A stretch of DNA of 44,319 bases from a bacterium (GTDB lineage: Bacteria; Krumholzibacteriota; Krumholzibacteriia; LZORAL124-64-63), in assembly GCA_003353795.1 (NCBI GenBank), contig PIVY01000016.1, positions 1 to 44,319 on the forward strand. Direction: 5' to 3'. Positions within the stretch are counted from its first letter, which is position 1. Every line of letters starts with the position of its first letter. Below are positions 3,434 through 41,730 of this stretch, piece after piece. The translations under genes and the position numbers were made by a program. Below the pieces are notes generated by a model. That model did no database searches, had not been told where the DNA came from, and worked only from the letters and a program-made list of their open reading frames with translations.

Positions 3434-4132
3434 CTAGCCCACCAGCGACGCCCAGGTCGCCGGCCCGACGATGCCGTCGGCGGACAGTCCGTGGGCGGCC
3501 TGGAAAACTTTTACCGCCTTCAGGGTACCGCGGCCGAAATGGCCGTCCTCGACCACTCCGGCGCCGCGACGATTCAGGAGCGATTGCAGCACGGTGACGG
3601 CCGGCCCCTGATCGGTGAGGCGCACCACCGGCCGCGGTGCCGGTGCCTCGACGACCGAAGGCCCGACGGGGTCGGATCCCGGGCCAGCGATGGCGCCGAA
3701 CCGATCCAGCCCCAGGACCGCGCGGTAGTCGAACACCGGACAGAGCTTGCTCGACACCTCGCAGTGGCCGTGGATCGTCACGCCGGCGTCGTATGCGCGG
3801 TCGATCTGCCGCGAGAGGTCGTGAATGCTGGCGAACTGCTCTCGGGTGAACTTCTCCTTCGCCAACCCGTGCAGGCAGACGGCGATGGTACCGGTGTTGT
3901 GGCCGGCCTGAGCCGCCGGGATGCGCGTGAGCGGACGACCCTCCTGGACCTCGCCGCTCTTGCGAATGAAGAGATGGTAGCCCACGTCCGACCAGCCGCG
4001 GCCGTCCGGCTCGGGGTCGGTGTGCCAGCGGCGCATCACCGACACGTCGTCGTGATGATCGTGGTCGCTGGCGCTGCAGTGCAGGAAGACGCGATCGACG
4101 GGGCGATCCGGTTTGACGAACAGCATGGTCAT
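3434..4132 (-). CDS. Endolysin-like N-acetylmuramoyl-L-alanine amidase with PG-binding domain
   Basis: A 232-residue, two-domain cell-wall hydrolase. The N-terminal part (about 10-140) is an Amidase_2 domain that should cut the bond between N-acetylmuramic acid and L-alanine. The expected zinc ligands are present: H18 (VFLHCSA), and H123 and C131 in the GHCEVSSKLCP block, with YH at 52-53. The C-terminal part (about 165-232) is a PG_binding_1 domain (LTDQGPAVTVLQSLLN, FGRGTLKAVKVFQ, DGIVGPATW). There is no signal peptide, which fits an endolysin needing a holin or lysis to reach the wall. Its start overlaps the stop of the upstream membrane-protein gene by 4 bases, a holin-endolysin-like arrangement. 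It is the last gene of the cassette divergent from the sheath gene. Confidence 0.85.
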   Translation of the reverse strand: MTMLFVKPDRPVDRVFLHCSASDHDHHDDVSVMRRWHTDPEPDGRGWSDVGYHLFIRKSGEVQEGRPLTRIPAAQAGHNTGTIAVCLHGLAKEKFTREQFASIHDLSRQIDRAYDAGVTIHGHCEVSSKLCPVFDYRAVLGLDRFGAIAGPGSDPVGPSVVEAPAPRPVVRLTDQGPAVTVLQSLLNRRGAGVVEDGHFGRGTLKAVKVFQAAHGLSADGIVGPATWASLVG

Positions 4133-4587
4133 GTCCCTCCGTTGAGAAAACCCGTGAACAGGTGCCGGGCGATGGCGCTCATGGCGCGGCCGGCGAGGAT
4201 CCGTCCGATCCCACCGGCGGCGATGCCGCCGAGAGCAGCCGTGACGTAACGGATGATGAAGTTCTCGATCCCGGCGCCCATTGCGATGAGCAGGATCGAG
4301 GCGATGGCGAAGATTCCCATCGAGCCGTTCAAGCAGAAATCGATCGTCTTGTGGACGTCGTGAAGCCGATTCTTGACCTCTCGGTTGTGCGCATCGATGA
4401 CTCCGACCGGTGCGTCGCGATGGAACCGTGCGATCACGTCGCCGTCGGGTTGCACCACGGTCATGGCGATCTGGTACGGCTCATGAGCGGCCGGGGTCTT
4501 GACGACCATGCCGCCCTGGGCCACGAGGTCGCGGATGTCGCCGCGGATCGCGCGCCATCGGCGCCGCAGTTCGGTGAACCCGGACAT
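4129..4587 (-). CDS. Small membrane protein, holin-like position, cassette family member
   Basis: A 152-residue protein whose start I place at the ATG preceded by GGGAG, 4 bases after the upstream stop. A GTG start 11 codons earlier is possible but would overlap. Residues 1-85 are soluble and contain an N-terminal helix (LRRRWRAIRGDIRDL) and the motif IAMTVVQPDGDVIARF followed by H67 (HNREV), resembling parts of the neighbouring 268- and 121-residue proteins. Residues 89-110 form a strong membrane segment (MGIFAIASILLIAMG), with a second glycine-rich one at about 112-132. It overlaps the amidase gene by 4 bases. The position suggests a holin or membrane anchor for the cassette, but family membership is not recognised. 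Confidence 0.6.
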   Translation of the reverse strand: MSGFTELRRRWRAIRGDIRDLVAQGGMVVKTPAAHEPYQIAMTVVQPDGDVIARFHRDAPVGVIDAHNREVKNRLHDVHKTIDFCLNGSMGIFAIASILLIAMGAGIENFIIRYVTAALGGIAAGGIGRILAGRAMSAIARHLFTGFLNGGT

Positions 4588-4591
4588 ACCG

Positions 4592-5398
4592 TCAGCTCCC
4601 GCGGAGGAGGCTGGCAGCACTCGTCAGGAACTTGCCGACCGTCTCCACCAGGTACTGCCACGAATTCATGGCCACCTTGGTGCTGTCCATGTGGGCGTTC
4701 CAGAGATGGTGGTGCTCGTCGCCGGCGTAGGTCCGGCAGATGCGGGTCACCACGTCGCCGTCGAGCTGGATCACGGTCTGCATGGCGATCTGCTCGACGG
4801 AGATCTCCCAGACCTTGCGGATCATGATCCACTCGCGGTTGGTGATGGCGAGGTCCGGCGATCTGTCGTCCGGGTGCTTGATGCTGTACTCGAGAATCCC
4901 GCGTCGCGTCTTACCGAAGGCCCAGCTGGTCTTCTTCCGCGCCTCGACGCGGTCCAGAATGTTCGCGATCTCGACACTGGATTTACGGATGCGGGACAGT
5001 ACGGCCTGCTTGATCTCGGGATCGGCAGCCGGACCGGAACTCGCGGAATCCTCGCTGTCCATATTCTCGATTCGTTCCCGAGCCATGGCGTACAAGGTCC
5101 GGAACGTATCGCCGTTCACACTGGGAGTCTCTTTCGGGCCGGGCTCGTCGGCCGACCGCTGCTGATACTTCGTCGTCTCCCCGGGCGCCCGCTCGGGGGT
5201 CGGCTCATACCCATATTCGAGAAGCGTTTCCCGGTACTCCCAGGCGATATCCAGCAACGCGTGCGCCGGACGCGGAGCCTTGCGCGCGGTCATCAACGAC
5301 GTCTGGATGATCGTGTTGACCTCCAGGTTCATCAGATCCTCGGCGATGTCCTGGAACGTCTCCTTCAAGCCACGGTCTCCACCGGTCAGACTCAACAT
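4592..5398 (-). CDS. Cassette protein of unknown function, 268 aa
   Basis: A soluble protein without signal peptide, not recognised. Its N-terminus (GLKETFQDIAEDLMNLEVNT, residues 10-29) aligns by eye with residues 4-23 of the 121-residue cassette protein (DFKDTIKSVAINLATLKVTT). A low-complexity, charged linker spans about 65-125. The C-terminal third has a helical region (IKQAVLSRIRKSSVEIANIL) and the motif IAMQTVIQLDGDVVTRI with D213-G214-D215, then H236. The same D-G-D...H layout occurs in two neighbours. The gene lies 9 bases after the 111-residue gene and 4 bases before the membrane-protein gene, so all are probably one operon. It looks like a fusion or duplication of the small cassette proteins. 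Confidence 0.6.
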   Translation of the reverse strand: MLSLTGGDRGLKETFQDIAEDLMNLEVNTIIQTSLMTARKAPRPAHALLDIAWEYRETLLEYGYEPTPERAPGETTKYQQRSADEPGPKETPSVNGDTFRTLYAMARERIENMDSEDSASSGPAADPEIKQAVLSRIRKSSVEIANILDRVEARKKTSWAFGKTRRGILEYSIKHPDDRSPDLAITNREWIMIRKVWEISVEQIAMQTVIQLDGDVVTRICRTYAGDEHHHLWNAHMDSTKVAMNSWQYLVETVGKFLTSAASLLRGS

Positions 5399-5407
5399 GG
5401 AAACACC

Positions 5408-5743
5408 TCACTCGTTCTCGTTGCCGTCGAGCGGAAGCGCGTCGAAGGCAGCGATCAGGTTTCGGAAACTCGAGAAACAGGCGGACAGGGGCCGCGTGCC
5501 GACGTCGACGAAGTGGTCGTGGATCGCCAGGACGCGGGCATGACAGGGCTCGAAGAGGCTCTCGTCGATGCAGACGAGGGTCGCCCCGTGGAGCAGATCA
5601 CAACGATGGTACGCCAGGACTCCGGGCGCCTCGGCCCCCGCGGCGCAGATCGTGGTCATCACCTCGCGGACGGCCAGATCGGCGGCCTTCCTGCGCAGGA
5701 CGTCGAGCAGGGAGGCGGCCCGATCGTCACTGGTCGTCGACAC
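5408..5743 (-). CDS. Cassette protein of unknown function, 111 aa
   Basis: A small soluble protein, not recognised. The N-terminal helix SLLDVLRRKAADLAVREVMT resembles those of the 268- and 121-residue neighbours (same L...A-x-D-L...V-x-T pattern). The later TLVCIDES and H77 in HDHFV occupy the places of their D-G-D and H-x3-V motifs, so it looks like the most divergent member of the set. It has five cysteines and no signal peptide. Its start overlaps the end of the upstream 121-residue gene by 17 bases, implying translational coupling. Existence as a gene is supported by tight packing in the operon; function is unknown. Confidence 0.55.
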   Translation of the reverse strand: MSTTSDDRAASLLDVLRRKAADLAVREVMTTICAAGAEAPGVLAYHRCDLLHGATLVCIDESLFEPCHARVLAIHDHFVDVGTRPLSACFSSFRNLIAAFDALPLDGNENE

Positions 5744-6092
5744 CGAGCAGCTTCCCGAACTTGTCGCCGAGCGTCATCATCAACTGGACGTTGCGTTGCA
5801 CGACGTCCTGGGCGCGCACGACCTGGCGTTCATGATACTCGCGCATGACCGCGGCATCGCCGTCGCCCACGAAATCCTCGTGGAGGAAGTTGCCGGCGTC
5901 ACCGTCGATGAGGTTGATCTCCGTGCGCAGGATCCGCGTGTTCTCGGGTTTCCACGCCGGTTCGATCAGCGTCCGACCGACCGAGTCGGCGTCGCCCCGC
6001 TTGGCGTGAATCTCGCCGACGCAGGTCGTGACCTTCAGCGTGGCCAGGTTGATCGCCACGCTCTTGATGGTATCCTTGAAATCCCCAGGCAT
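5727..6092 (-). CDS. First gene of cassette, unknown 121-aa protein
   Basis: A small soluble protein, not recognised, and the first gene of the minus-strand cassette. I start it at the ATG giving MPGDFKDT; the open frame runs further upstream, but that extension has an unnatural, arginine/proline-rich composition. The N-terminal helix (residues 4-23) is clearly similar to that of the 268-residue protein. The central LRTEINLIDGDAGNFL carries D63-G64-D65, followed by H87 in HERQV. The C-terminus is helical (QRNVQLMMTLGDKFGKLL), like the end of the 268-residue protein (LVETVGKFL). It lies about 200 bases from the divergently transcribed sheath gene, so the two transcripts may share regulation. 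Confidence 0.6.
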   Translation of the reverse strand: MPGDFKDTIKSVAINLATLKVTTCVGEIHAKRGDADSVGRTLIEPAWKPENTRILRTEINLIDGDAGNFLHEDFVGDGDAAVMREYHERQVVRAQDVVQRNVQLMMTLGDKFGKLLGVDDQ

Positions 6093-6289
6093 ATCCGTAC
6101 CCCTCGATAGCGTTCGGGATGGAACTCCGGGGGCAGGATCGGCGGAGCAGTCAGGCGGGTGCGGGAGCAGTCGCTCCCCCGGGCGATGGCGGCAGTCTAG
6201 CATGGTCGGCGCCGCAAGAGCGAGTGGATTCATCTCATTTAAAGGCAACCCGCAGTGCCAGAACCGCCGGGGGTCGTTTCATTGGGTCC

Positions 6290-7666
6290 ATGATGCGCGC
6301 CTTGCTCATGACCATCCCATTGATCCTCGCGGCCGCGATCCCCGTCCTCGACACCGGCACGGCCGGATTCGTGGGCCTGTCCCAGCAAGGGCCTCTCGAC
6401 ACGCCGACCCTCGTCACATCCTACGAGCAGTACGCCGACATCTTCGGGACCTCCACCGCCGGCCTGGCCAACCCGTTCCTGGCCCCGTCGGTGGCGGGTT
6501 TCTTCGCCAACGGCGGGCAGCGGCTGGTCGTGGTGCGCGTGGCGAGCGCCGACCCGCTGTCGTTCATCGCCGGCCTGCAGACACTCGCCGAGGTGGACGA
6601 GATTGCCGTGGTCGCCATTCCCGGCGCCACTTCGCCCGCGGTACAGGCGGCGCTGATCGCTCACGCCGAAGGCACGCATGACCGCCTGGCCATCCTCGAC
6701 CCTGCAACCACCGACGACATCCAGCTCGTGCAGGATCAGCGGGCCGCCCTCGACGCCGCCGACGGTCACGCCACCCTCTACTTCCCCTGGATCTGGGCCA
6801 CGCCCGCCGGCGAGTCGCTGCTCCTGCCGCCGAGCGGTTTCGTGGCCGGCGTCTATGCGCGTACCGACACGCCCGACTCTCCCGTGGGCAGCATCGCCAC
6901 GGCCACGGACGTGAGCTATGTCGTGACGCCATCGGAGCAGGACATCCTCAACCCGCTGGGCATCAACGCCATCCGCCTCTTCACCGGCAGCGATGTGCGG
7001 GTCTGGGGCGCACGGACCCTTTCCAGCGATCCCGAGTGGCGCTACGTGGCGGTCCGACGCACGGCGCTGTGCCTCGAGGAATCGATCCAGGAGGGCACGG
7101 CCTGGGCTGTGTTCGAACCCAACGACGAGCCGCTCTGGGCACAACTGCGCGGTGACGTGGGCGACTTCCTGTTCGAACGGTGGGCCGACGGCTGGTTCCA
7201 GGGCAGTACGCCCGACGACGCCTATTTCGTGCTTTGCGACCGCAGCACCATGACACAGGCCGACCTCGACGCCGGTCGCACGGTGATCCTGGCGGGCTTC
7301 GCACCGCTGCAGCCGGCGGAGTTCACGGTGCTACGGATCGTGCACGAGCGACCGGCGGTGGGCGTGGCTTTCGAGATACCCGCGGCCGGCCCCGTGCTTC
7401 ACGATGCGGCGCCGAATCCGTTCAACCCGCAGACGCAGATCCGTTTCGACCTGGTCCAGGGCGGATCGGTTCGGCTCGGCATCCACGACCTCGCCGGACG
7501 GATAGTCCGGCGACTGATCGTCGGCACCCATCTGGCGCCGGGTCGCCACGAGCGCCGCTGGGACGGCCGCGACGCATCCGGCGCCAGCGCGCCGTCGGGC
7601 GTCTACGTGGTCCGGCTGGAAGCGAGCGGCGCCGTCCGAATCGGTCAGATCTCACTGGTCCGCTGA
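6290..7666 (+). CDS. Exported contractile phage-tail sheath protein with C-terminal sorting tail
   Basis: A 458-residue protein. Residues 20-350 match the tail sheath family (Phage_sheath_1) throughout: TAGFVGLSQQGP (24-35), VAGFFANGGQRLVVVRV (68-84), DRLAILDP (131-138), LLPPSGFVAGVYARTDTP, DILNPLGINAIR, VRVWGARTLSSDPEWRY (236-252), FEPNDEPLWAQLR, and the C-terminal APLQPAEFTVLRI (338-350). Known sheaths are cytoplasmic and polymerise around a tube. Two features here are unusual. Residues 1-18 form a hydrophobic signal-like segment (MMRALLMTIPLILAAAI) replacing the usual N-terminal PGVYxEE arm, and residues 373-458 are a PNPFNP...W-D-G-R-D...SGVY sorting tail like those on other exported proteins here. 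The start is the ATG pair at 6290/6293; the upstream open frame looks non-coding. Divergent from the small-protein/amidase cassette; no tube or baseplate gene is present. Confidence 0.88.
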   Translation: MMRALLMTIPLILAAAIPVLDTGTAGFVGLSQQGPLDTPTLVTSYEQYADIFGTSTAGLANPFLAPSVAGFFANGGQRLVVVRVASADPLSFIAGLQTLAEVDEIAVVAIPGATSPAVQAALIAHAEGTHDRLAILDPATTDDIQLVQDQRAALDAADGHATLYFPWIWATPAGESLLLPPSGFVAGVYARTDTPDSPVGSIATATDVSYVVTPSEQDILNPLGINAIRLFTGSDVRVWGARTLSSDPEWRYVAVRRTALCLEESIQEGTAWAVFEPNDEPLWAQLRGDVGDFLFERWADGWFQGSTPDDAYFVLCDRSTMTQADLDAGRTVILAGFAPLQPAEFTVLRIVHERPAVGVAFEIPAAGPVLHDAAPNPFNPQTQIRFDLVQGGSVRLGIHDLAGRIVRRLIVGTHLAPGRHERRWDGRDASGASAPSGVYVVRLEASGAVRIGQISLVR

Positions 7667-7754: not shown

Positions 7755-10532
7755 CTACCGCACGAGCACCATCCGCTGCGTGTCGGCATGCTGCGTGCCG
7801 TCGGCGCCGCGGAACTCGAGACGATACAGGTAGACGCCCGAGGCCACGGGGCGGCCACCGGAATCGGCACCGTCCCAGACTCGCGCGTGACGACCGGCGG
7901 CGACAGTGTCGTCGACCAGCGTCCGCACCAGCTGCCCCCGCACGTTCATGATGCGCAGGGTGGCGTGGCCGGATGTGGGCACCGCGAAGGCGATGGTCGT
8001 CCGCGGGTTGAAGGGGTTCGGGTGATTGCCGGTGAGTTCGAAGGCCAGGGGAACGTCCTCGGCCCCCACCACGCCGGTGATGTTGATGGCGATCTGGTCG
8101 GTGGAGGTATAGCCCAGCGCGTCGGTGACCCGCAGCTCGATGGAGATCGGCGCGGGCACGCCCGGCGCGCGGAACCCGGGCAGCAACTCGTCGGTGCTGA
8201 AGTTCTGCTGGTTGGACAGCAGACCGTGGATGTCGGAGTGCCACTCGTACTGGTAGGGCGGCGAGCCGTTGGTCGCGCCGCCGCGGAAGGCCACCTGGGT
8301 GCCGTACTCGAATGAGTCGCCGTCTCCCGGAGCGAGGATCTGGCCATGCACCGGCAGCGAGTCGGATGCCATGTAGAGGCGGGCCGGCACGGTCAGGCGA
8401 CCGCCTTCCTCGCGCGGATCCGGACCGGTGAGGTCGACGTCCATGTAGTAGACGGGGCCCATGAACGTCTGCTGGGACAGGAGTCCTTGCTCGAAGTAGC
8501 CGATGCCGGCATCGCGAACCTGCACTTCCTCGGCGGGGAACTCCGGCGCACCCTGCAGGGCCGCGAATCCGAAGGCGATGAGCTGGTCCAGCGCCGCCTC
8601 CACGGGGATCACGTCCACCTGCTCGCTCACGATCACGTCGCGGCTGACCTGGTTGAACGCCTGGATCTGACCGTCGACGCCCATGGCCACGTGGGTGCGG
8701 CCGCCGTTGCCCACAGCCGGGTACAGCACGTCCGCGCCGTGGTTGGTGCCGATCACCACGTCGTAGGCGAACGGGAACGTCTGGACGATTTCGCCGTCCT
8801 CGCCGATCTCCGCCGCCTCCATCACGTTCACGCCGGCCACGAAGTTGTTCTGGCCCACGAGCTCGAGTTGCTGGAGCGTCTCGAAGGCGCGTGCGCCCGC
8901 CTCGTCCGGGTTCATCTCCACGTCGACCGCGCGCTCGGGTACCACGTGCAGCGCGTCGTTGGTGAACTGCCAGCCGCCCGAGGCGATGTCGCCCGCGAGC
9001 GTGGCCAGGCCCGACGCCGCGGCATAGCCGCTGGCGTCCTCGCGACCCACGGCGAGGTCGGAGCAGTCGAGTCCCAGCATCTCACAGAGGCGCTCGAACA
9101 TCTGGCCGGTGGTGCCGTCATCCATGTTCGGCGGCACGACCCGCATGATCCAGGCGGACTCCGGCAGGCGCTTCTGCAGGACCTCGGGATGCACGGTCAC
9201 CTTGAGCGCCGGGCGCGCGGGGTCGCCGAGCGCCGCGGGCATGACCCACTCGATGGGCGTGCTGGTGCGCTGGACCGCAGCAGGATCGAACACGGCCAGG
9301 CCACCGCCCGCCTTGCTCACCGTGTGGGAGATTGTCCAGTGGGTGGCGTCGGGGCTGTCGGCATACACGGTGCCCTGACCCCAGATCCGTTCGTTGTAGT
9401 GCCGGTTGTCCTCGGCCAGCATGCGCCACTTGTTGCCGGCGGGCTGATGGCTGTCGTTGGCGTGCCACCACGACGAGTAGATCGACCACGACGAGTCGAA
9501 GATGCCGTTGTCGATGAGCTTGCGGGCGATGGTCTTGCCGTAGTTGCTGGAGCCGTTGATGACGTTGATGGCGCCGGAGATGGTGTGGGCGCCGTTGAAG
9601 TTGTTGTGCCAGGCGGTGGACTTGAGGTTGAGGCAGCAGTGGAAGAAGGCCCACTCCAGGTCGTTGTCGCCCCAGGCGCCGTCGGAGTCGGACTGCACCA
9701 TGTTGGCGTCGTCGTGGGAGGTGTTGGCCAGGAAGAGAGCGTCGGTGACGCCGTGGCCGCAGTAGAGGAACGCGTCGGTGGCGTCGAGCCAGTTGTTGTT
9801 GTTGCCGCCCAGGTCGTGGCGCTTGTAGTCGGTCTCCCAGGCGTTGTTGTTGCCCCAGTCGAAGAGCCAGGTCCAGCCGTGGCCGTCGAGGTAGTCGCTG
9901 AAGCGCTGGGCGGTGTTGTTGGGCGAGGAGAGGTCATTGCCGGTGCCGGGGTAGTCTTCGCACCAGTGGTCGGCGACCTCGGCGGCGTCGCGGGTGAGTT
10001 CTTCCTCGAACCAGAAGGCGCCGACCTCGGACACCTCGGGCATGGGGCGGCCGGGCGGCGCGGCAAAGACGAGCTCGAAGCCCTGGTAGCGCTCGGCGGG
10101 CACGGCGAAGGTGACGACGGACCAGTCGGCGGCCGGCGGCAGGCTCACGAAGGTCGCGCCGGCCATCCAGTCCACGTAGGGCCGCAGCAAGTCGACCGTG
10201 ACCGAGCCGGAGCCGCGGTACCGGATCTCGATCTCGTTGGTCCACTCGGCGGCGCCGGCGTAGCGGACGCGGAGATTCGTCTCGGCCAGCTTGGTGGCAT
10301 CGCTGAAGTCGGTCAGGCCGGTTTCCCAGGCCGGGTCGGACAGTCGGGCGCCGATCACGTGGTTGACCGAACGGGCCTCCTCGTGGGTCAGGGCCTTGTC
10401 GGGCGGGAGGGTGCCGCCGCGATTGCGGAGGGGTTCGGCGTCTGCGGAGGCTAGGACGAGTGTCGTCATGAGCACGGTCGTCATGAGCGCCCGGGCCAGG
10501 ACACGTCGTCTATCGTGGGGAAAAAATTTCAT
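7755..10532 (-). CDS. Secreted caspase-fold-like (DUF6345/C25-like) protein with sorting tail
   Basis: A 925-residue exported protein. The signal peptide occupies about residues 1-32. A beta-sandwich-like region follows (about 85-175). The domain at about 185-400 has an arrangement expected of clan CD (gingipain/caspase-like) peptidases: a strand ending in FLYCGHG with H260, then WAFFHCCLNL with C299/C300, and a GSSNYG segment. I recall DUF6345 proteins having this layout, but the exact family is uncertain. A PKD-like segment (about 750-830: GATNGSPPYQYEWHSD, ELRVTDALGY) precedes the C-terminal PNPFNP tail (about 845-925), which should direct export or surface attachment. GAGGTG precedes the ATG. 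It is divergent from a TonB receptor and followed by a strong terminator. Proteolytic activity is inferred, not shown. Confidence 0.7.
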   Translation of the reverse strand: MKFFPHDRRRVLARALMTTVLMTTLVLASADAEPLRNRGGTLPPDKALTHEEARSVNHVIGARLSDPAWETGLTDFSDATKLAETNLRVRYAGAAEWTNEIEIRYRGSGSVTVDLLRPYVDWMAGATFVSLPPAADWSVVTFAVPAERYQGFELVFAAPPGRPMPEVSEVGAFWFEEELTRDAAEVADHWCEDYPGTGNDLSSPNNTAQRFSDYLDGHGWTWLFDWGNNNAWETDYKRHDLGGNNNNWLDATDAFLYCGHGVTDALFLANTSHDDANMVQSDSDGAWGDNDLEWAFFHCCLNLKSTAWHNNFNGAHTISGAINVINGSSNYGKTIARKLIDNGIFDSSWSIYSSWWHANDSHQPAGNKWRMLAEDNRHYNERIWGQGTVYADSPDATHWTISHTVSKAGGGLAVFDPAAVQRTSTPIEWVMPAALGDPARPALKVTVHPEVLQKRLPESAWIMRVVPPNMDDGTTGQMFERLCEMLGLDCSDLAVGREDASGYAAASGLATLAGDIASGGWQFTNDALHVVPERAVDVEMNPDEAGARAFETLQQLELVGQNNFVAGVNVMEAAEIGEDGEIVQTFPFAYDVVIGTNHGADVLYPAVGNGGRTHVAMGVDGQIQAFNQVSRDVIVSEQVDVIPVEAALDQLIAFGFAALQGAPEFPAEEVQVRDAGIGYFEQGLLSQQTFMGPVYYMDVDLTGPDPREEGGRLTVPARLYMASDSLPVHGQILAPGDGDSFEYGTQVAFRGGATNGSPPYQYEWHSDIHGLLSNQQNFSTDELLPGFRAPGVPAPISIELRVTDALGYTSTDQIAINITGVVGAEDVPLAFELTGNHPNPFNPRTTIAFAVPTSGHATLRIMNVRGQLVRTLVDDTVAAGRHARVWDGADSGGRPVASGVYLYRLEFRGADGTQHADTQRMVLVR

Positions 10533-13529: not shown

Positions 13530-13579
13530 GGGCCACTCCCTGGTTGGTGCGATCGGACCGGCGGGCGCGGCCCAGCATG

Positions 13580-15244
13580 CTACTTCGTCCGCTGCCCCGT
13601 CAACTCCGCTCCGCCCTGCCGCAGGATCACCGCCGACGCCGCTTCGGCGCCGTCCTCGATGACGAACTCCAGGCGAGCATCCACCACCGTCAGGAAGAAC
13701 TCGGTCTCGCTGGATGGATACACCTCCACCTCACCCTGGCCGGTCGCCATGGTCAGGAGCCGGTCGCCGTCGCGGCGAACGGTGAGCTCGAAGCCCGGCA
13801 TCAGCTCGTACGTGCCGACGTAGCGGTCGTAGATCGCCGGGTCCACGTCGGCCACTTCCGGGCCCGTGGGCAGCGGTTCGTCGGTGAGGTCGGCCGGCTG
13901 CTCCTGACCGCCCCAGGGCTTCAGGTGCATGCGGACCACCCGGCCGTCGTCGTCCAGTTCGAAGCGAAGGCGGGACAGGCTGCGCGGGTAGAAGAAGTCG
14001 GTGGCCGTGATGGGGGTCACGGGTTGATTGCCACCGCCGGTGCGCTGGGTGAAGAGGACCCCGTCCTCCACGGTCACCACCCGCGTCTCCTCGTCGTTGA
14101 TGCGATAGACGCCGACGTACTGATCCAGGATCGCCGGGTCGAGATCCGTGGCGGCCACGGGCAGCGTCTCGCCGCTCGCCAGCGCGATGGCCTGGCGGGC
14201 GGGAACCGCGGGATCGAGACCGTGCTCGGGGTTGTTGGACAGCACCGCCGCGAAGATCTTCCGGGCCGGAATGCTCGCGCTGAACGTGAGGAATCCGTGG
14301 ATCCCGCCGCTGTGCATGACCAGCAGGTCGCCGTCGAACTCGCCGATTGCCCAGCCGTAGCCGTAGCTGGTGGCCTCGCCGCCACTGAGCGTGTAGGGCG
14401 TCCACATGCGCTCGCGGGTGGCGGCGGTCACGAGCTCGTCGCTTTCCAGGGCCTGTTGCCAGCGGAGCAGGTCATCGACCGTGGAGAGGAGCGAACCCGC
14501 GGCGTACGGCAGCGACATGCTGATATGCGGGGCGTTGATGTACCGGTCGTTCAGCCAGTGATAGCCCAGGGCGCGCCGCGGGATGATCCGTTCGGTGCTG
14601 CCGTAGTACGAACCGGTCATGCCGAGCGGCCCGAAGATGCGCGTCTCGACAAACTCGGCGTACGACATCCCCGACACCGCCTCGATGATGGCGCCCAGCA
14701 GGAAATAGCCGGAGTTGCTGTAGCGCCACTCGGTACCCGGCTCGAACAGCAGGTCCAGGTCCTTGAAGGTGTCGAGGACCTCCTCGACGGTGCGGTCGAG
14801 GTAAGCGGTCTCCATGACCTCCGGGATCTCGGTGTACCCCTTGATGCCGCTGGTGTGGGTCAGCAGGTGCTCGATGGTGATGGCGCGGCCGTGGGTGGGA
14901 TAGCCGGGCAGGTGCGTCTCGATGGGGTCGTCCACCGAGAGCTTGCCTTCCTCGACGAGCATCATGATGCCGACGGCCGTGAACTGCTTGGTGATCGATC
15001 CGATACGGAAGACCATGTCCGGCGCGTTGGGCACGTCGCGTTCGAGGTCGGCCATGCCGTAGCCGGCTCGGAGCAGGATCTCGCCATCCCTGGCAACGAG
15101 GGCCGTGACGCCGGGATCGTCGGCGGGATAGGCGTCGGAGAGGAGTGTCTCGAGGTCGGTGGCGACCCCGGCAGCGATGGAACCGGTGGCGATCACGGTC
15201 AGCGCGAGAATCAACGGGGCGATGTTGCGGCGCGGGGTCGTCAT
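13580..15244 (-). CDS. Serine beta-lactamase-fold hydrolase (class C / PBP4*-like)
   Basis: A 554-residue exported hydrolase. Start chosen at the ATG after AAAGGAA; the longer frame adds an unlikely N-terminus. A signal peptide covers about residues 1-27. The Beta-lactamase (class C/esterase) domain has the three usual motifs: S83-I-T-K86 (S-x-x-K nucleophile), Y175-S-N177, and H311-S-G-G in place of K-T-G. About 190 residues follow with two lipocalin-like repeats (DQYVGVYRINDEE... and DRYVGTYELMPGFE...), as in DUF3471-type extensions. Family members act as D-aminopeptidases, esterases or cell-wall peptidases rather than antibiotic-degrading enzymes, so resistance should not be assumed. Located in periplasm or outside. 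Confidence 0.85.
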   Translation of the reverse strand: MTTPRRNIAPLILALTVIATGSIAAGVATDLETLLSDAYPADDPGVTALVARDGEILLRAGYGMADLERDVPNAPDMVFRIGSITKQFTAVGIMMLVEEGKLSVDDPIETHLPGYPTHGRAITIEHLLTHTSGIKGYTEIPEVMETAYLDRTVEEVLDTFKDLDLLFEPGTEWRYSNSGYFLLGAIIEAVSGMSYAEFVETRIFGPLGMTGSYYGSTERIIPRRALGYHWLNDRYINAPHISMSLPYAAGSLLSTVDDLLRWQQALESDELVTAATRERMWTPYTLSGGEATSYGYGWAIGEFDGDLLVMHSGGIHGFLTFSASIPARKIFAAVLSNNPEHGLDPAVPARQAIALASGETLPVAATDLDPAILDQYVGVYRINDEETRVVTVEDGVLFTQRTGGGNQPVTPITATDFFYPRSLSRLRFELDDDGRVVRMHLKPWGGQEQPADLTDEPLPTGPEVADVDPAIYDRYVGTYELMPGFELTVRRDGDRLLTMATGQGEVEVYPSSETEFFLTVVDARLEFVIEDGAEAASAVILRQGGAELTGQRTK

Positions 15245-15501
15245 GAGACATTCCTTTCGGGTCGCCGGGAATCGACGCCAGCGTCGGAGCCTAATTCGAA
15301 CCGGTGGAAACACACAACCGGGAAACGTGCAGACCAAGGACGTGGGACCACCGACCGAGGTTGCCTCGCAAACAACCGTTCGGCCATGACCGGCGCGGGG
15401 ACGAATGGCGGCAAACCCCTCGTGGTGCTACGCTTCGAATACGAGATCATCATCGAACTGTATCGAATCCCGATCCCGAACAGATGCCGAAGGAGACTCG
15501 A

Positions 15502-15888
15502 ATGCGCCACGATTCCTGCTCCAGGAATGGACTCCGCGCGATGGTGCTCGTGGCGGTCATCGCGACGGTCGGCGGCTGCGCTCACCATCGGGTCGTCGCC
15601 CACGATGGAGATCCGTCCCAGGTCCCGACGGAAGTCGCCACGCATCATCAGTACTTCTGGGGGCTGGCCGGCGAGCCGACAATTTACGTCACGAACTGCA
15701 GTTCGACCGCGCTGCATGACGTGGAGGTCTCGACGACGTTCTGGCAGGGGCTGGCCACCATCGTCACGCTCGGAATCTGGATGCCGGCCACGGTGGAGTG
15801 GCGGTGCGCGACGGTGCAGGAAACGACCACCGACGCTCCCATCCCCACGGCGCTACGCAACGAGGAGGCCCCCCATGCCGGCCGGTGA
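15502..15888 (+). CDS. Bor/Iss-like lipoprotein
   Basis: A 128-residue predicted lipoprotein. The ATG at 15502 has AAGGAG 6 bases upstream; a signal peptide ends in the lipobox VGGC. The mature region reads HHQYFWGLAGE...VTNCSS...VEVSTTFWQGLATIVTLGIWMPATVEWRC. It closely follows the layout of the Bor family (HH-F, central Cys, then T-L-G-I-Y-x-P...V-x-C), first known from phage lambda and as Iss in enterobacteria, where it is linked to serum survival. The role here is unknown. Its last 14 bases overlap the start of the FAD oxidase gene, so the two are translationally coupled, an unexpected pairing. Confidence 0.72.
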   Translation: MRHDSCSRNGLRAMVLVAVIATVGGCAHHRVVAHDGDPSQVPTEVATHHQYFWGLAGEPTIYVTNCSSTALHDVEVSTTFWQGLATIVTLGIWMPATVEWRCATVQETTTDAPIPTALRNEEAPHAGR

Positions 15889-17413
15889 ATCCACGCCGAA
15901 CTGGGTGCTCGACCCACGCACGACCTGGTCCAACACCCACGAGAACTTCACGGTCCGTAACCTGGATGGCGTCTACCTGCTCGCCAACGCGCCGGCGACC
16001 AATCCGTTCACGGCCTACAAGGACACGGCCGACGCGATCCAGAAGCTGATCCGGCAGGCCCGCGGCATCCGCGAGTTGCGACCCGTGGGTGCGGGCTGGT
16101 CGCTGTCGCCCATGGTCGCCACCGGCGGGCGTCTGCTCAACAACAAGAACCTCAAGCTGCACATCCGATTCCGCGACCAGCGGCAGTTCGATCCCGCGTT
16201 CGTCGGGCAACCGAATCGCATCCACTGCTGCCAGGCCGGCATGACAATCAAGGCGGTCAGCCGGGTCCTCGAGCGCGAGAATCTGTCCCTGCCCACGTCG
16301 GGCGCAAGCAACGGGCAGACCATCGCCGGGGCGCTGTCGACGGGCACGCACGGCGCCGCCATCGGCTTCGGATCGATTCCCGAGTTCGTCGTCGGCCTGC
16401 ACCTGGCGACGGGCAAGGCGCAGACGATCTGGCTGGAGCGCGAGAGCCGACCGGTGCTCTCGGAGGCCATGGTCGGCATGTTTGGCGCCCAGCTGATTCG
16501 CAGCGACGAACTCTTCAACGCGGCGCTGGTCGGACTGGGCGGATTCGGGATGCTTCTGTCGGTGACCATCGAGGCCGTCCCGCGTTATCTCCTCGAGGTG
16601 CACACCAAGAAACTGAAGCTGAACGCGGCGCTGAAGCGGGCCATGGACGCCGCCGATTTCACCGCGCTGCCCATGGGACACGCCGGCCAGCGGCCGTACT
16701 CGGTCGACCTGCTCGTCAATCCGCACCGGCCCGACTCGGCGTACGTCACGCTGATGTACAAGCGCCGGTATCGGAACGACTACCCCCGGCACGACTTCAA
16801 CAATCCGGATTCCGCGCTCGGCGACGACGCCCTCAACGTCATGGGCGACATCATGGATGCCATTCCCGTGGTGGGGACCGTGGCGTTGCCGGGGATCATC
16901 ACGAGTCAGCTCGACGAGCGCTACGAGGAAGTGGCCGGCGCCAAAGGCCTGCACAGCGAGGTGTTCACCTCCACGAAGATCCGCGGCAACGTCAGCAGCA
17001 TGGGGATCGCCGTGTCGGCCGAGAACGCCAGCCGCGCCCTCCAGCTCGTGCTGGACACCCACGATGCGGCAGGCCCGTTCGCCGGCGCCCTGGGCGTCCG
17101 CTTCGTCAAGGGCACCGACGCCACGCTCGGCTTCACGCGCTTTCCGCGCACATGCGTGATCGAGGCGGACGGGGTGCAGAACGATCTGTCCCGACAGTTC
17201 AACCGCGCCCTGTGGAGAGCGTTCGATCAGAGCGACATCGAGCACACCCTGCACTGGGGCAAGCTCAACAACCTGACCCGGCGTCGCGTGCGGTCCATGT
17301 ACGGCGACGATCGCGTGGACCGCTGGCTGAACGCGCGGAACAAACTTCTCGCGCCGGCGGCCCGGCCGGTGTTCGCGAGCGACTTCCTGCGCAAGGCCGG
17401 TCTAGCGGATTAG
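15875..17413 (+). CDS. FAD-linked oxidase, ALO (sugar-lactone oxidase) type
   Basis: A 512-residue flavoprotein of the PCMH/FAD_binding_4 plus ALO class, which oxidises sugar lactones or polyols with oxygen or a carrier as acceptor. Motifs: LRPVGAGWSLSPM near residue 70, LPTSGASNGQTIAGALSTGTHG (in two parts, about 143-164) typical of the FAD-binding half, and HTLHWGKLNN near residue 460, the H-W-G-K signature of ALO family members such as gulonolactone and alditol oxidases. No signal peptide is seen. The ATG has GAGGAGG 6 bases upstream and overlaps the Bor-like gene by 14 bases. The longer open frame upstream runs antisense through the hydrolase gene and is not coding. Substrate unknown. Confidence 0.82.
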   Translation: MPAGESTPNWVLDPRTTWSNTHENFTVRNLDGVYLLANAPATNPFTAYKDTADAIQKLIRQARGIRELRPVGAGWSLSPMVATGGRLLNNKNLKLHIRFRDQRQFDPAFVGQPNRIHCCQAGMTIKAVSRVLERENLSLPTSGASNGQTIAGALSTGTHGAAIGFGSIPEFVVGLHLATGKAQTIWLERESRPVLSEAMVGMFGAQLIRSDELFNAALVGLGGFGMLLSVTIEAVPRYLLEVHTKKLKLNAALKRAMDAADFTALPMGHAGQRPYSVDLLVNPHRPDSAYVTLMYKRRYRNDYPRHDFNNPDSALGDDALNVMGDIMDAIPVVGTVALPGIITSQLDERYEEVAGAKGLHSEVFTSTKIRGNVSSMGIAVSAENASRALQLVLDTHDAAGPFAGALGVRFVKGTDATLGFTRFPRTCVIEADGVQNDLSRQFNRALWRAFDQSDIEHTLHWGKLNNLTRRRVRSMYGDDRVDRWLNARNKLLAPAARPVFASDFLRKAGLAD

Positions 17414-28156: not shown

Positions 28157-30160
28157 CTACCGCACGAGCATCAATTTCAGCGCGCCGTCCGAATCCTGCG
28201 TCAGGATCCGGCAGAAGTACGTGCCCGACGGCACGGCCTGGCCCGCGTCGTCGCGTCCGTTCCAGCTGGCCGAGTGCTGGCCCGGCTGGCGCATGCCCTC
28301 GTCCAGCGTGCGCACCAGCCGACCCCGCACGTCGAACACGCCGAGCGTGATCTCCGCCCGGTTCGCCACGGCATAGTTAACGGTCGTCAGGGGATTGAAT
28401 GGGTTGGGTGCATTGCCGAGCAATCTGGTGGCCGGGGGCGTCTCGTCGCCCGGGACGTCGAGCGGGTCGGGGACCAGCCAGTTCACGATGCCCTGCATGA
28501 GGGCGGCGCGGTCGGCCGCGTTGTCGATGGCCTCGAAGCCGAAGGCCAGGTAGACGACACGGAAGGTTCCGGTGTCGGCCTTGATCGCACCGTTGCGGGC
28601 GGCATCGTAGGTGAGGATCACCGACGCGTCGGCGCCCCGCGGGTCGATGTCGCTGGGGTACTCCTGGTTATTGGCGCCGTCGCCGCCCGAGATGTTCAGG
28701 CTCAGGCCATTGCTGATGGGATCACCCGCCACGCCCTGGAGCTGCAACATGTTGGTGTCGTCGGCGACGTAGGTGGCGTGCAGGTAGTTCTGGTACCACG
28801 CGAGAGCGGCGCCCCCCTGGTCCGCCATCTCCCAGCCGATGTCCTGGCCGGTGATGAAGAGAGTGCCGCCGCCGTCGAGATAGGCCGACAGGGCCGCGCG
28901 ATCGTCGGCGTCGACGGTGGGGAAAGCCCAGCCGCACGACCACACCACGGCGTCGAAGTTGTCGAGGACGGCCGCGGTGACAGCCGTGGAGTTGCGATCC
29001 CAGGTTGCGAAGCTCCGGCCGGTTCCGGCCAGGGCGGGCGCGAAGTAAAGGCTCTCGTAGTCGTAGGCGCCGTCGTCATCGACGAGGAGGATCTCGGTGC
29101 CGGTCGTGATGACCTTGTAGGTGATGGAGCGGTCGCCGGACGCACCGCCGCGAGAATGGAAATTAAGGGTGACCTCGCCCTCGCCGGGGCCGGCGGCGTC
29201 GATGACCACGTTGAACGAGCCGTGGTCGCCGGCGCCGAGGAGCAAATTCAGCGCGGTGAAATGGCTCGTCTCGTGGATGAAGTAGCTGTTCCAGCCGGCG
29301 GGCAGGCTCGACGTGTCGAGGGTCACGTCGTACATGTCTTCCAGGTTGCCGGCGTTGAACAGCGCCGCCTCCTCGAAAGTCACGACGCCGCTGTCGATGA
29401 CCGTGCGATCGCCGAGAGCGAAGTAACGCATGCAGTAGTCGGGTGTCGGACGGGAGTTGCAGGTCTGCAGGACGGCCTTGTCGCCGTCGCGCTGTACGAA
29501 GGCGATGAGGCGCATGTTGGCCGGATTCCAGGTGCCGTCGATGCTGAACGACAGGGGCACGACCTGCGTCTGACCGGCCTCGCTGATGGTCAGCGACACG
29601 TCGGGCAGCAAGTCCCGCAGGATGTTTTCGTAGACGGTGCCGCCGTAGGTGAGGTGATCCTCGACCACGGCCACGCGCAGATAGGTGGCGGCGATGTCGG
29701 CGAGGTCGTCGGTGAGTTCCAGATTCACGGTGCACGAGGACCCGAGGTTGTCCAGAACCACGTCGGTGAGCGACATCTTCAGCGGTGTGGCGTCGTCCAG
29801 CAGCTTCTGCACCACCGGATCGTAGACGCTGCCGTTGATGGCGTCGGTGCCGGCACCCACGATCATGTCACCGCCGTTGAAGAGCAAGTGGGGCAGGCCG
29901 TTGTTCCCATAGTACGTGATCCGGGCGTCCGAATCGGGAGCGCCGAGACCACCACTGGTGGCCATGTATTCGATGGAGTCGAACTCGATGACGTCGTAGC
30001 GGTCGTGCATGACCTGCAGACCGGCGCGTGCGCGCGGGCAGTAGCCTCACCATGTGGCCGAGCCCATTTCCACGACGATATTCCGGGGCACCAGAGCCAT
30101 GGCCGGGATGGCCGTGACCGCGAGGAGGACGAACGCGAGCAGCAGGCGGGTGGCTTTCAT
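28157..30160 (-). CDS. Predicted exported selenoprotein, Omp28-like, Sec-Gly-Tyr-Cys
   Basis: Read through an in-frame TGA at 30049-30047, this 667-residue protein begins at an ATG with AAGGA upstream and has a signal peptide (MKATRLLLAFVLLAVTAIPA, to about residue 22). Next comes VVEMGSATW-U38-GYCPRARAG: a thioredoxin-fold redox site of the Omp28-like family, in which U38 stands where C-x-x-C proteins have the first Cys; C41 is the second. YYGNNGLPHLLFNGG follows as the family's cis-Pro/loop block. A ThuA/glutamine-amidotransferase-like domain lies at about 355-565 (ILLVDDDGAYDYESLYF, GGGTLFITGQDIGWEM), and a PNPFNP sorting tail at about 597-667. Without recoding, the ORF would begin at 30010 and lose both signal and redox site. 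A stem-loop sits just after the TGA. A point mutation or sequence error at a Cys codon is the alternative. Confidence 0.75.
30000..30023 (-). promoter_or_regulatory. SECIS-like hairpin for UGA recoding
   Basis: On the minus strand CGGTC-TGCA pairs with TGCA-(C)-GACCG: 9 base pairs with one bulged C and a 5-base loop GGTCA. The loop begins 32 bases after the in-frame TGA. Bacterial SECIS elements are small stem-loops inside the coding region just after the UGA, with G near the start of the loop; the spacing and loop fit. This is a visual match, not a computed fold. Confidence 0.6.
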
Positions 30161-38574: not shown

Positions 38575-39969
38575 CTACCGTACGAGCGACATCTTCCCCG
38601 TCTCGACACGGTCGCCGGTGGCCATCCGGACCATGTAGGTGCCCGAGGGCACGGCGCGGCCGGTGCGGTCTTGCCCCGTCCAGGTCACCGAGTGGATGCC
38701 AGGATCGAAGATCCGGTCGGCGACGGTCGCGACCTGCCGCCCCGCGAGGTCGTACACCGAGACGCTCACCTGCTGGGTGCGTTCCACCACGAACGCGATG
38801 GCCGTGACGGGGTTGAACGGGTTGGGGTAGTTGCCCACCAGCCGGGCCGCGGGCAGGTTCTCCGATGCCGCCAGCACCGTGCTCGCCGAGAGCCTCGCGG
38901 CCAGGGTGTGGTGGGTGTCGTCGGCGTGGTAGGAGCCCACGGCCCAGACGTCGCAGGCATCGATCTTGGCGAGACCGCGCCATGCCGTCGTCGCCGCGCC
39001 AGGAATGTCGGGGCTGGTTCGCTGATGCCAGGCCGTGCCGTCCCACTGATAGAAGACGAAGCCGGCGATCAGCGAGTAGGACGTGGCCCACGCATCGTCG
39101 GGCGCCAGGACGGCGACCTGGGACAGCGGTGCATCGGATGGCGGCCCGTCCTGCTGGGACCAGGCGCTGCCGTCCCAGTGGAGAGACAGGTGCTGGGACC
39201 AGTTGATGTAGCCCACGATCCAGAGGTCGTCCGGGGCGCAGCCGTCGATGTCGCGGAAGAAGATCGGCTGCTGCCCATCGAAGGGCGTCGGTATCGACGT
39301 CCACGCGGAACCGTCCCAGTGCTGGACGTATCCGCGATACTCGCCGCGCTGGTCGCCGCCGTACCCGACGATCCACACGTCGTCGGGACCGGCCGCGTGA
39401 ATGCCCTCGGGATAGTTCAACGTCAGGAATGGCAACGGCGCCGAGGACAGTGTCCAGTCCGACCCGTCGAAGTGGACGATGCCATTGGTGCTGGTCAGGG
39501 CCCAGACATCCGACGACGAGGTCGCCGACAGGTCGAGCGCGGCGCCGGCGCTGAGGATCAGGTCGATACGGTCGATGGCGCCGTCTCTGGCCCGCAAGAA
39601 GAACAGCTCGCGTTCGTAGACGGAATACGGGCGGGTACCGGTGAGCCAGACGTCCCCATCGGGGCTGCTGCCGGCCGAGGAGAACGCGATCCCCTCCACC
39701 TCCGCGGGCACCGGGAATTCCATCCACTCGCTGCCGTCGAAGTAGAGGATCATGGGCAGCGTGGTCGGACCGGATCGCGATCCGACCGCCCAGGCCGTGC
39801 CGTCGTTGGACGCGGCCACGTCCACGAGCGCGTTGCCTGTGGTGCCCGGATTCGGGGTCGTGACCTGCTGGAAATCGCCGCACGACTGGGCCGTGGCGGA
39901 GTGGTACGGGAAGAACAGGAGCGCCAGGGCAAGGATCGCAAGGAACCAGGAGTGTCGATCGTGTTTCAT
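38575..39969 (-). CDS. Secreted propeller-like protein with sorting tail
   Basis: A 464-residue exported protein. Start at the ATG giving MKHDRHSWF, with AAGG five bases upstream. Signal peptide to about residue 27 (LFFPYHSATAQ). The body (about 45-370) consists of repeated segments with an AW-W-D-G-S-x-W core (YFDGSEWMEF, HFDGSDWTLS, HWDGSAWTSI, HWDGSAWSQQ, QWDGTAWHQR) alternating with DDVW/D-x-W-A-V-G turns, as in a beta-propeller. The C-terminal tail (about 385-464) has YPNPFNP, VSVYDLAGRQV, VTWTGQDRTG and SGTYMVRM. Probably a surface or extracellular protein; no ligand can be inferred. Confidence 0.7.
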   Translation of the reverse strand: MKHDRHSWFLAILALALLFFPYHSATAQSCGDFQQVTTPNPGTTGNALVDVAASNDGTAWAVGSRSGPTTLPMILYFDGSEWMEFPVPAEVEGIAFSSAGSSPDGDVWLTGTRPYSVYERELFFLRARDGAIDRIDLILSAGAALDLSATSSSDVWALTSTNGIVHFDGSDWTLSSAPLPFLTLNYPEGIHAAGPDDVWIVGYGGDQRGEYRGYVQHWDGSAWTSIPTPFDGQQPIFFRDIDGCAPDDLWIVGYINWSQHLSLHWDGSAWSQQDGPPSDAPLSQVAVLAPDDAWATSYSLIAGFVFYQWDGTAWHQRTSPDIPGAATTAWRGLAKIDACDVWAVGSYHADDTHHTLAARLSASTVLAASENLPAARLVGNYPNPFNPVTAIAFVVERTQQVSVSVYDLAGRQVATVADRIFDPGIHSVTWTGQDRTGRAVPSGTYMVRMATGDRVETGKMSLVR

Positions 39970-40057
39970 GGCAACCTTCCTTCCGACTTGAACCACCTCT
40001 CACCACGCTGAGACACTAGGCAATTGATCGCGCGATGTCTGTGACCGCGATCACTCA

Positions 40058-40110: not shown

Positions 40111-41469
40111 TCAATCTTGCCGCAGAATCTTGGTCTCCACCGATCCCGCCGACGTCGTCACGTGCACGAAGTACATCCCCGCCGGCGTCCGCCGCCCCTG
40201 GGCGTCGCGACCGTCCCAGAGCGCGCGGCCAACGCCATCTCCCGACGCAGACGTTGCGAGCGATCTCACGAATCGACCCCGAACGTCGTACACCGTGACC
40301 GCCACCGGCGTCGCTCCCGGAACCTCGTATCGGATGTCGACCTGCGCCGTGAAAGGATTCGGGGCTGCATCGACCCGTCCGCCAATCATCGACGGCCGCG
40401 CATCGACCACCGGCAACGGCGTGTCGTCCCAGCGCGCGATTCGCTGCGACGGCTCGCCCCCCGCGTTCTGGAAATTGCCCCCCACGATCAGGCTTCCCCC
40501 GAAGGTCGTGAGCGCGTTGACGAGCCCGTCCATGCCTCCGTCGAGGTCGCTCCAGGTGGCGCCATCCCACTGCGCGATCCTGGGCGCCGGCAGTCCCCCG
40601 GCCTCCATCAACGGGCCACCGGCGATGAGGTTCTCGCCGTAGACCGTGAGCGCATGGATCCCCACGGTGACGCCATCGCCGAGCGGCGACCAGGACGACC
40701 CGTTCCACCGCGCCACGTAGTTCACGTCGAGGACGTTCGGCGGCGCGCCGACCTGGGTGAAGAACCCGCCCACGATCAGGTCGCCGCCATGGGTCGCCAG
40801 CCCCCGGCCTCCCCCGTTCATTCCGGTCTCGAGATCGTCCCAGGAGGTGCCGTCCCAGCTCGCGATCGCCAGTGCCGGATTGCCGCCGGCCTCGGTGAAG
40901 TCGCCCCCGACGAAGAGAATCCCCTCGTGAACATGAAGCACGTTGACCGGCCGGTCGACGCCGCTGTCCAGGGTGGACCAGGAGGACCCATTCCAGCGTG
41001 CGATGCGATTGGCCGCGGCTCCACCGGCCTGGAGGAAAAAGCCGGCGACCACGAGTTCGCCGTCGTACACGGCGAGGGCCGTGACGACATCGTCCACCCC
41101 GACACCGAGAGCGCGCCAATGCTCACCGTCCCACGCCGCGACATGATTCACGTCGACGCCGCCTGCGGCATGAAACTTCCCGGCGGCGACGAGTTCGCCG
41201 TCGTACACGGCCAGGGCGTGGACATCGTCGTCCATGCCCGCGCCGAGCGCCGACCATGCCGCGCCGTCCCAGGCGGCGATGAAGTTCGCGGGCGTGGACC
41301 CCGCGTTGGCGAAGTCACCACCGACGATGAGTTCACCCTCGTACTCAGCCAGCGCTCGCACTCGAGCATCGAGGCCGTTGGCGGCGAATCCGTCCCACCA
41401 TGAAGCGTCGGCTCCAGCGGTGATCGCGGTGGTCACGATGGCGGTCAGTAGTATCGTGCGAGTCAGCAT
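40111..41469 (-). CDS. Secreted seven-repeat (propeller-like) protein with sorting tail
   Basis: A 452-residue exported protein; the ATG at 41469 has GGAGG upstream and opens a signal peptide (to about residue 22). About 45-residue repeats run from about 30 to 350. I count seven, each with the core V-x-A-L-x-V-Y-x-G-E-L-x-V-G-G-x-F, A-G-G, N-x-I-A-x-W-D/N-G-x-x-W-x-x-L-G/D-x-G-M/V. Seven such units fit a seven-bladed beta-propeller. The C-terminal tail (about 365-452) has PNPFTAQVDIRY, VYDVRGRFVRSL, LWDGRDAQG and AGMYFV; it departs from the usual PNPFNP motif. GGDF and IVGG repeats make the gene internally repetitive. Ligand unknown. Confidence 0.75.
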   Translation of the reverse strand: MLTRTILLTAIVTTAITAGADASWWDGFAANGLDARVRALAEYEGELIVGGDFANAGSTPANFIAAWDGAAWSALGAGMDDDVHALAVYDGELVAAGKFHAAGGVDVNHVAAWDGEHWRALGVGVDDVVTALAVYDGELVVAGFFLQAGGAAANRIARWNGSSWSTLDSGVDRPVNVLHVHEGILFVGGDFTEAGGNPALAIASWDGTSWDDLETGMNGGGRGLATHGGDLIVGGFFTQVGAPPNVLDVNYVARWNGSSWSPLGDGVTVGIHALTVYGENLIAGGPLMEAGGLPAPRIAQWDGATWSDLDGGMDGLVNALTTFGGSLIVGGNFQNAGGEPSQRIARWDDTPLPVVDARPSMIGGRVDAAPNPFTAQVDIRYEVPGATPVAVTVYDVRGRFVRSLATSASGDGVGRALWDGRDAQGRRTPAGMYFVHVTTSAGSVETKILRQD

Positions 41470-41730
41470 GGGGTACGACCTCCGGTGGGAGCGTCCTGGG
41501 TGGCGGATCAGCGGATGAAAGCTTCGGCAAAGGGGAACTTCACTGGAACGCCCGCCAACCATCGCCCGTGCGATCCATCCCTGAATGCTGATGATTGTAT
41601 CATGTCTTCGTCCACGTTTCGCGTTGGACTACTCCCGGGTCGCCGTCACGAGGCGCCGGCTCACATCGGCGAGGGAATCAAGTTGCAGACGATGCTCTAC
41701 GGGCAGCGACGAGGTCGCAAGAAACACGAC

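Follow-up and report, generated by a model that had tools for sequence, protein, structure and literature searches.

A contractile-sheath homologue with a predicted signal peptide and a sorting-like tail in Krumholzibacteriota

We analysed a stretch of 44,319 nucleotides (hereafter the window), which corresponds to positions 1 to 44,319 of contig PIVY01000016.1 of a Krumholzibacteriota bacterium (assembly GCA_003353795.1). A gene on its + strand (6290-7663, stop codon 7664-7666) encodes a 458-residue protein that resembles the sheath subunits of contractile tails, and that we call the tailed sheath. It comprises a predicted signal peptide, a sheath core and a C-terminal FlgD_ig domain (Table 1), and is probably a subunit of the type found in extracellular contractile injection systems (eCIS) that has become cargo for the Sec and type IX secretion systems (T9SS), to serve as a surface module that has no tube, does not interlock and does not contract. 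In the literature that we searched, all sheaths are interlocked polymers that surround a tube within a contractile machine. A full-text search, which did not reach most subscription journals, yielded no published account of a signal peptide, a sheath and a sorting tail in one protein, in agreement with an earlier note on this DNA, whose author knew of no described example.

Scanning with Pfam models identified Phage_sheath_1 at residues 95-244 (41.9 bits, cut-off 31.4) and Phage_sheath_1C at residues 245-350 (35.7 bits, cut-off 26.9), and gave a score slightly below the cut-off for Gp18_domIII_N at residues 22-84 (26.2 bits, cut-off 27). The protein matched the tail sheath family PHROG 23 (E 4.5e-49). 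A profile built from four complete copies (described below) retrieved the Streptomyces contractile injection system (CIS) sheath 8bky (E 1.4e-96), followed by the sheaths of H. borinquense, Anabaena, the Photorhabdus virulence cassette (PVC), the antifeeding prophage (AFP) and AlgoCIS and, separately, by FlgD. An AlphaFold2 model had a mean predicted local distance difference test (pLDDT) value of 76.4, with values below 50 for a loop (residues 194-207) and a linker (residues 357-376), and its top Foldseek match was also a Streptomyces CIS sheath (9gts_2A; E 6.4e-26, TM-score 0.74 by target length). The Pfam, PHROG 23 and profile matches and the model thus bear out the sheath fold that the earlier note had recognised. 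The C-terminal arm (PAEFTVLRIVH) starts at the end of the core. The best match by both profile and fold, Cis2 of Streptomyces coelicolor (8bky, 8bl4, 9gts, 9gtp), shares the core through PAEF, but differs in being cytoplasmic, in having an N-terminal arm and a KAPAN loop, in assembling on a tube and contracting, and in stopping shortly after PAEF (PMC10066040). Similarly, the eCIS sheaths Pvc2, Afp2-4 and Alg2 of AlgoCIS have a fold identical in kind, but they are encoded in eCIS operons, built on a tube and joined by a conserved handshake (PMC8894135), whereas the tailed sheath is armless and solitary, and has a signal peptide and a tail.

The architecture recurs in relatives, as found by surveying 80 genomes of the phylum Krumholzibacteriota. 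Three of them, in addition to the window's own (G000), contain the complete three-part form: G003, from the same genus (54% identity), G011, from the same family (48%), and G046, from another family of the same class (52%), these identities spanning the full length including the tail. A fourth, G027, contains a partial copy, of which only the first 70 codons, with a clear signal-like start, precede a contig end. In a quick maximum-likelihood tree, in which several rows were long-branched, the four complete copies formed one clade (Shimodaira-Hasegawa-like approximate likelihood ratio test, 99) that was not nested among the ordinary eCIS sheaths of the phylum. The latter (on contig C164 of G011 and contig C17 of G000) are 38-53% identical to the tailed form over the matched core; they are clustered with tube genes and were not sister to the tailed clade in this tree, and the main sheath of C164 starts with PGVYVEEV, unlike the tailed form. 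In every pair of orthologues, nonsynonymous divergence was lower than synonymous divergence (pN < pS), with synonymous sites near saturation, and the core was at least as conserved as the tail in five of the six pairs. No such architecture was found in 387 relatives spanning other phyla. Scanning of GTDB contigs gave no matches with a single-protein query; with an alignment query, it recovered the copies already known from Krumholzibacteriia, together with eCIS sheaths of the ordinary kind in other phyla. Among the matches listed for viral contigs and phages, there were only ordinary sheaths. Because these pattern-based scans have limited recall, the restriction to Krumholzibacteriota is provisional.

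The open reading frame spans 6119 to 7666, and a start at 6119 was rejected because homology begins only at 6290. From 6290, the protein opens with a hydrophobic stretch whose core lacks acidic residues and which is followed by an A-A-A cleavage site (after residue 16). Ordinary sheaths have the sequence MPxYLxPGVYVEEV here and, by the same measure, a lower hydrophobicity. The G003, G046, G011 and G027 copies also begin with a hydrophobic segment free of acidic residues, with small residues at the cleavage site, the signal-like segments of the window copy and of G046 being the two weakest of the five. The predicted signal peptide occupies the place of the N-terminal arm, which is missing in all four complete copies and in the truncated fifth. 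In known sheaths, the arms interlock the subunits as a mesh (PMC10811340, PMC10457771) and the linker that follows the N-terminal arm governs contraction (PMC5797969; PMC10066040). This linker corresponds to I21-G25 (IEGVG) in Streptomyces Cis2 (PMC10066040), and profile alignment paired these residues with residue 17 onward of the tailed sheath. Cleavage after A16 would therefore yield a chain that starts at the equivalent of I21, the beginning of the arm-to-body linker, so that the mature protein would consist of the body and the linker, with no arm to donate to the handshake sheet of a neighbour. The earlier note had claimed such a loss of the arm and its replacement by a signal-like segment; both hold in the four complete copies when these are compared with ordinary sheaths.

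We compared the four complete copies with 26 ordinary sheaths, considering as conserved the columns with at least 75% conservation. The tailed sequences were trimmed at residue 360, and the columns of the C-terminal arm are incomplete for G003, G046 and G011 and hence unreliable. Twenty-five of the 128 conserved columns were completely lost in the tailed copies. The clearest losses were the arm and the R-x-V-x-K-A-P-A-N loop, which is replaced by SP[VIF]G: the K, A, A, N, R and V residues of this loop were present in 92-100% of the ordinary sheaths (96-100% for the K, A, A and N of KAPAN alone) and in none of the four tailed copies. Scattered further losses included Arg at 288 and the Ala-Leu pair at 302-303, replaced by Trp/Tyr-Phe. 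We suspect that helix 280-303 is the tube-facing attachment helix, as in AlgoCIS (PMC8894135).

At the other end of the protein, FlgD_ig was detected above its cut-off (Pfam PF13860, residues 393-446; 38.4 bits, cut-off 27), which lends support to a sorting-like tail, as proposed in the earlier note. The same domain was found on the four other exported proteins of the window for which a similar tail had been claimed, all encoded on the minus strand (7755-10532, 28157-30010, 38575-39996 and 40111-41562). The tailed copies extend for 103-111 residues after the sheath match. Among the matches listed, ordinary eCIS homologues keep their own N-terminus and end at most about 25 residues past the PAEF strand, and phage-like homologues end within about 45 residues of the match. 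SprA, the T9SS pore, was detectable in 80 of the 80 genomes of the phylum (above the cut-off in 72), and eight PorV-family genes were above the cut-off in the window's genome, indicating that a T9SS translocon is encoded there. Because of the signal-like start in five species, of the FlgD_ig tail of exported proteins and of the presence of SprA and PorV, the sequence data strongly suggest that this sheath is reused outside the cytoplasm. The predicted signal peptide and the sorting-like C-terminal immunoglobulin (Ig)-like domain, in a genome that encodes SprA and PorV, resemble the arrangement of T9SS cargo with a FlgD_ig or a Por_Secre_tail domain. The passenger in the present case is a contractile sheath, for which we found no published precedent.

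In all five contigs, the tailed sheath gene was found outside any CIS cluster. It stands alone, with no accompanying tube and baseplate genes, and no conservation of its neighbours was seen across the contigs, except for the common presence of FlgD-tailed proteins. In G003 (94% complete) and G046 (99% complete), PF17482 and phrog_23 matched only the tailed sheath, and no PF06841 tube was found. A partner tube with export features was not found. An ordinary eCIS cluster is present in the window's genome on contig C17 (L036), where the contig end truncates it near the sheath gene; its genes were read as sheath, tube, LysM-like, spike, gp25-like and AAA ATPase. G011 contains two ordinary sheath-tube pairs.

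In the most likely scenario, the ancestral arm strand, which plugs the handshake sheet of the neighbour in ordinary sheaths, would have been exchanged for a signal peptide, and a FlgD_ig tail would have been gained behind the C-terminal strand. After Sec export, signal peptidase would cut behind residue 16, leaving a chain that begins at the old arm-to-body linker; the mature protein would fold in the periplasm and be directed by its tail through the SprA pore, to be retained at the surface or released into the medium. We infer that cleavage, export, surface location and the absence of polymerisation go together in this way, and that the mature module is most likely a monomer or a small oligomer, with a role in binding or in the structure of the surface. 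An ordinary contractile sheath is unlikely, because the donor arm and the loop are gone and an Ig domain sits on the C-terminal strand. On balance, we lean towards the view that sheath subunits have been exapted as secreted surface proteins that act independently of a tube, a baseplate or contraction, and that may form a new kind of surface polymer or be decoys against contractile machines. If this is true, the armless, T9SS-tailed lineage would be a case of phage-derived machinery exapted by retaining the fold and dropping the mechanism of assembly. It would also provide a natural test of the features needed for folding versus assembly in sheaths, since the KAPAN loop and the arm are lost and the core is kept.

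Several observations do not fit easily with a secreted, non-polymerising protein. The tail scores only 16.6 bits against TIGR04183 (T9SS type A), below the cut-off of 23, which is another difference from known T9SS cargo, and a search for PorM/GldM gave no match, though the control likewise gave none. The window copy has a short predicted signal peptide that contains only one Arg, and the best hydrophobic core of G046 is preceded by zero net positive charge. The tailed copies retain 79 of the 128 conserved columns of ordinary sheaths, which means that some sheath-like assembly could take place. The incompleteness of draft genomes makes the absence of eCIS genes uncertain. Finally, the five genomes with a tailed sheath and the three with an eCIS sheath overlap in two, more than expected by chance (p ~0.009, with tiny numbers), and a tie to eCIS biology is possible.

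The retained columns also argue for extracellular polymerisation, in which the exported subunits would assemble into rings, short tubes or a coat on the cell surface by using the kept body contacts and the C-terminal strand rather than a two-arm mesh. The partial retention of this strand (PAEF) and the fact that the core is the best conserved part of the protein are consistent with such a polymer, which we nonetheless regard as unlikely: the C-terminal arm, part of the inner handshake domain of known sheaths (PMC10811340), here carries a flexible linker plus an Ig domain (about 85 residues), and no exported tube that could act as a template was found. The earlier note suggested a surface polymer or an adhesin. 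An adhesin would be speculative, and the polymer has lost ground, at least as an ordinary sheath polymer, since the loss of the arm, the loss of the KAPAN loop and the bulky domain on the C-terminal strand all weigh against it. It is more doubtful still that the exported subunits act on contractile machines, binding or capping parts of foreign or sister eCIS, phages or type VI secretion systems (T6SS) as decoys, or modulating eCIS released by the cell itself. Having an acceptor domain but no donor arm, such a subunit could conceivably cap a sheath end, T6SS sheath subunit mutants can be dominant (PMC5797969), and two of the five genomes also encode an eCIS sheath, which would be in line with such a role. 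However, this proposal is purely inferential, sheath ends are normally covered by the baseplate and the cap (PMC8894135), and no eCIS parts were found in G046 with sheath, tube and gp25 models. No PADLOC match was obtained, and a reading as a defence system was rejected on this basis.

We consider it very improbable that the protein is a variant of an ordinary cytoplasmic eCIS sheath, for instance proximal to the baseplate or the cap, anchored in a membrane and decorated by an Ig domain. Some CIS do use several sheath paralogues, phage sheaths commonly bear Ig-like extra domains (PMC9230969), a thylakoid-anchored CIS is known (PMC8894136), and the window's genome has its eCIS cluster on C17. 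Against this stand the location of the gene outside eCIS clusters in each of the five contigs, the two genomes in which no other CIS sheath gene and no CIS tube gene was found, the cleavage site that follows the hydrophobic core in five of five copies, and the similarity of the tail to that of other signal-peptide-bearing proteins of the window. A fusion, a decaying pseudogene or an assembly artefact is barely conceivable: the window is a single contig of a draft assembly of 953 contigs, but a chimera or mis-assembly is refuted by three other genomes that encode the uninterrupted three-part architecture (48-54% identity) and by the matching start in G027.

Table 1. Positions of the parts of the tailed sheath gene in the window
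Feature	Position	Strand	Remarks
Predicted Sec signal peptide, residues 1-16 (MMRALLMTIPLILAAA)	6290..6337	+	Hydrophobic core, one Arg, AAA cleavage site
Contractile-sheath core, residues 17-352	6338..7345	+	Pfam PF22671, PF04984, PF17482; PHROG 23; model; Foldseek
Shortened loop TPDSPVG, residues 194-200	6869..6889	+	Replaces R-x-V-x-K-A-P-A-N of ordinary sheaths
Flexible linker, sheath core to tail	7358..7411	+	pLDDT <50 at 357-376; unconserved among orthologues
FlgD_ig T9SS-sorting-like C-terminal domain (PNPFNP ... SGVY ... SLVR)	7412..7663	+	PF13860, 38.4 bits

Other contractile-system genes were noted in the phylum. Contig C2 of G001 contains an orphan eCIS-type tube gene (L168:9607-10170, + strand; PF06841, 140 bits), the product of which has no signal peptide; a sheath gene was not detected in this 4-contig genome. 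In G003, contig C236 (L169) contains a T6SS-like cluster read as TssA, B, C, Hcp, F and G, inside which the gp25 match of this genome is located. The weak sheath match of G075 appears to be T6SS VipB-like.

In the window itself, five small open reading frames (3434-6248, - strand) are divergent from the tailed sheath gene. The last of these encodes an N-acetylmuramoyl-L-alanine amidase with a peptidoglycan-binding domain, and those of the others that were scanned gave no significant Pfam match. Convergent with the sheath gene is the gene at 7755-10532 (- strand), whose large exported product contains DUF6345 and ends in a FlgD_ig tail. Further downstream, a frame of 1289 amino acids (13544-17413, + strand) contains an FAD_binding_4 domain only at residues 827-963.
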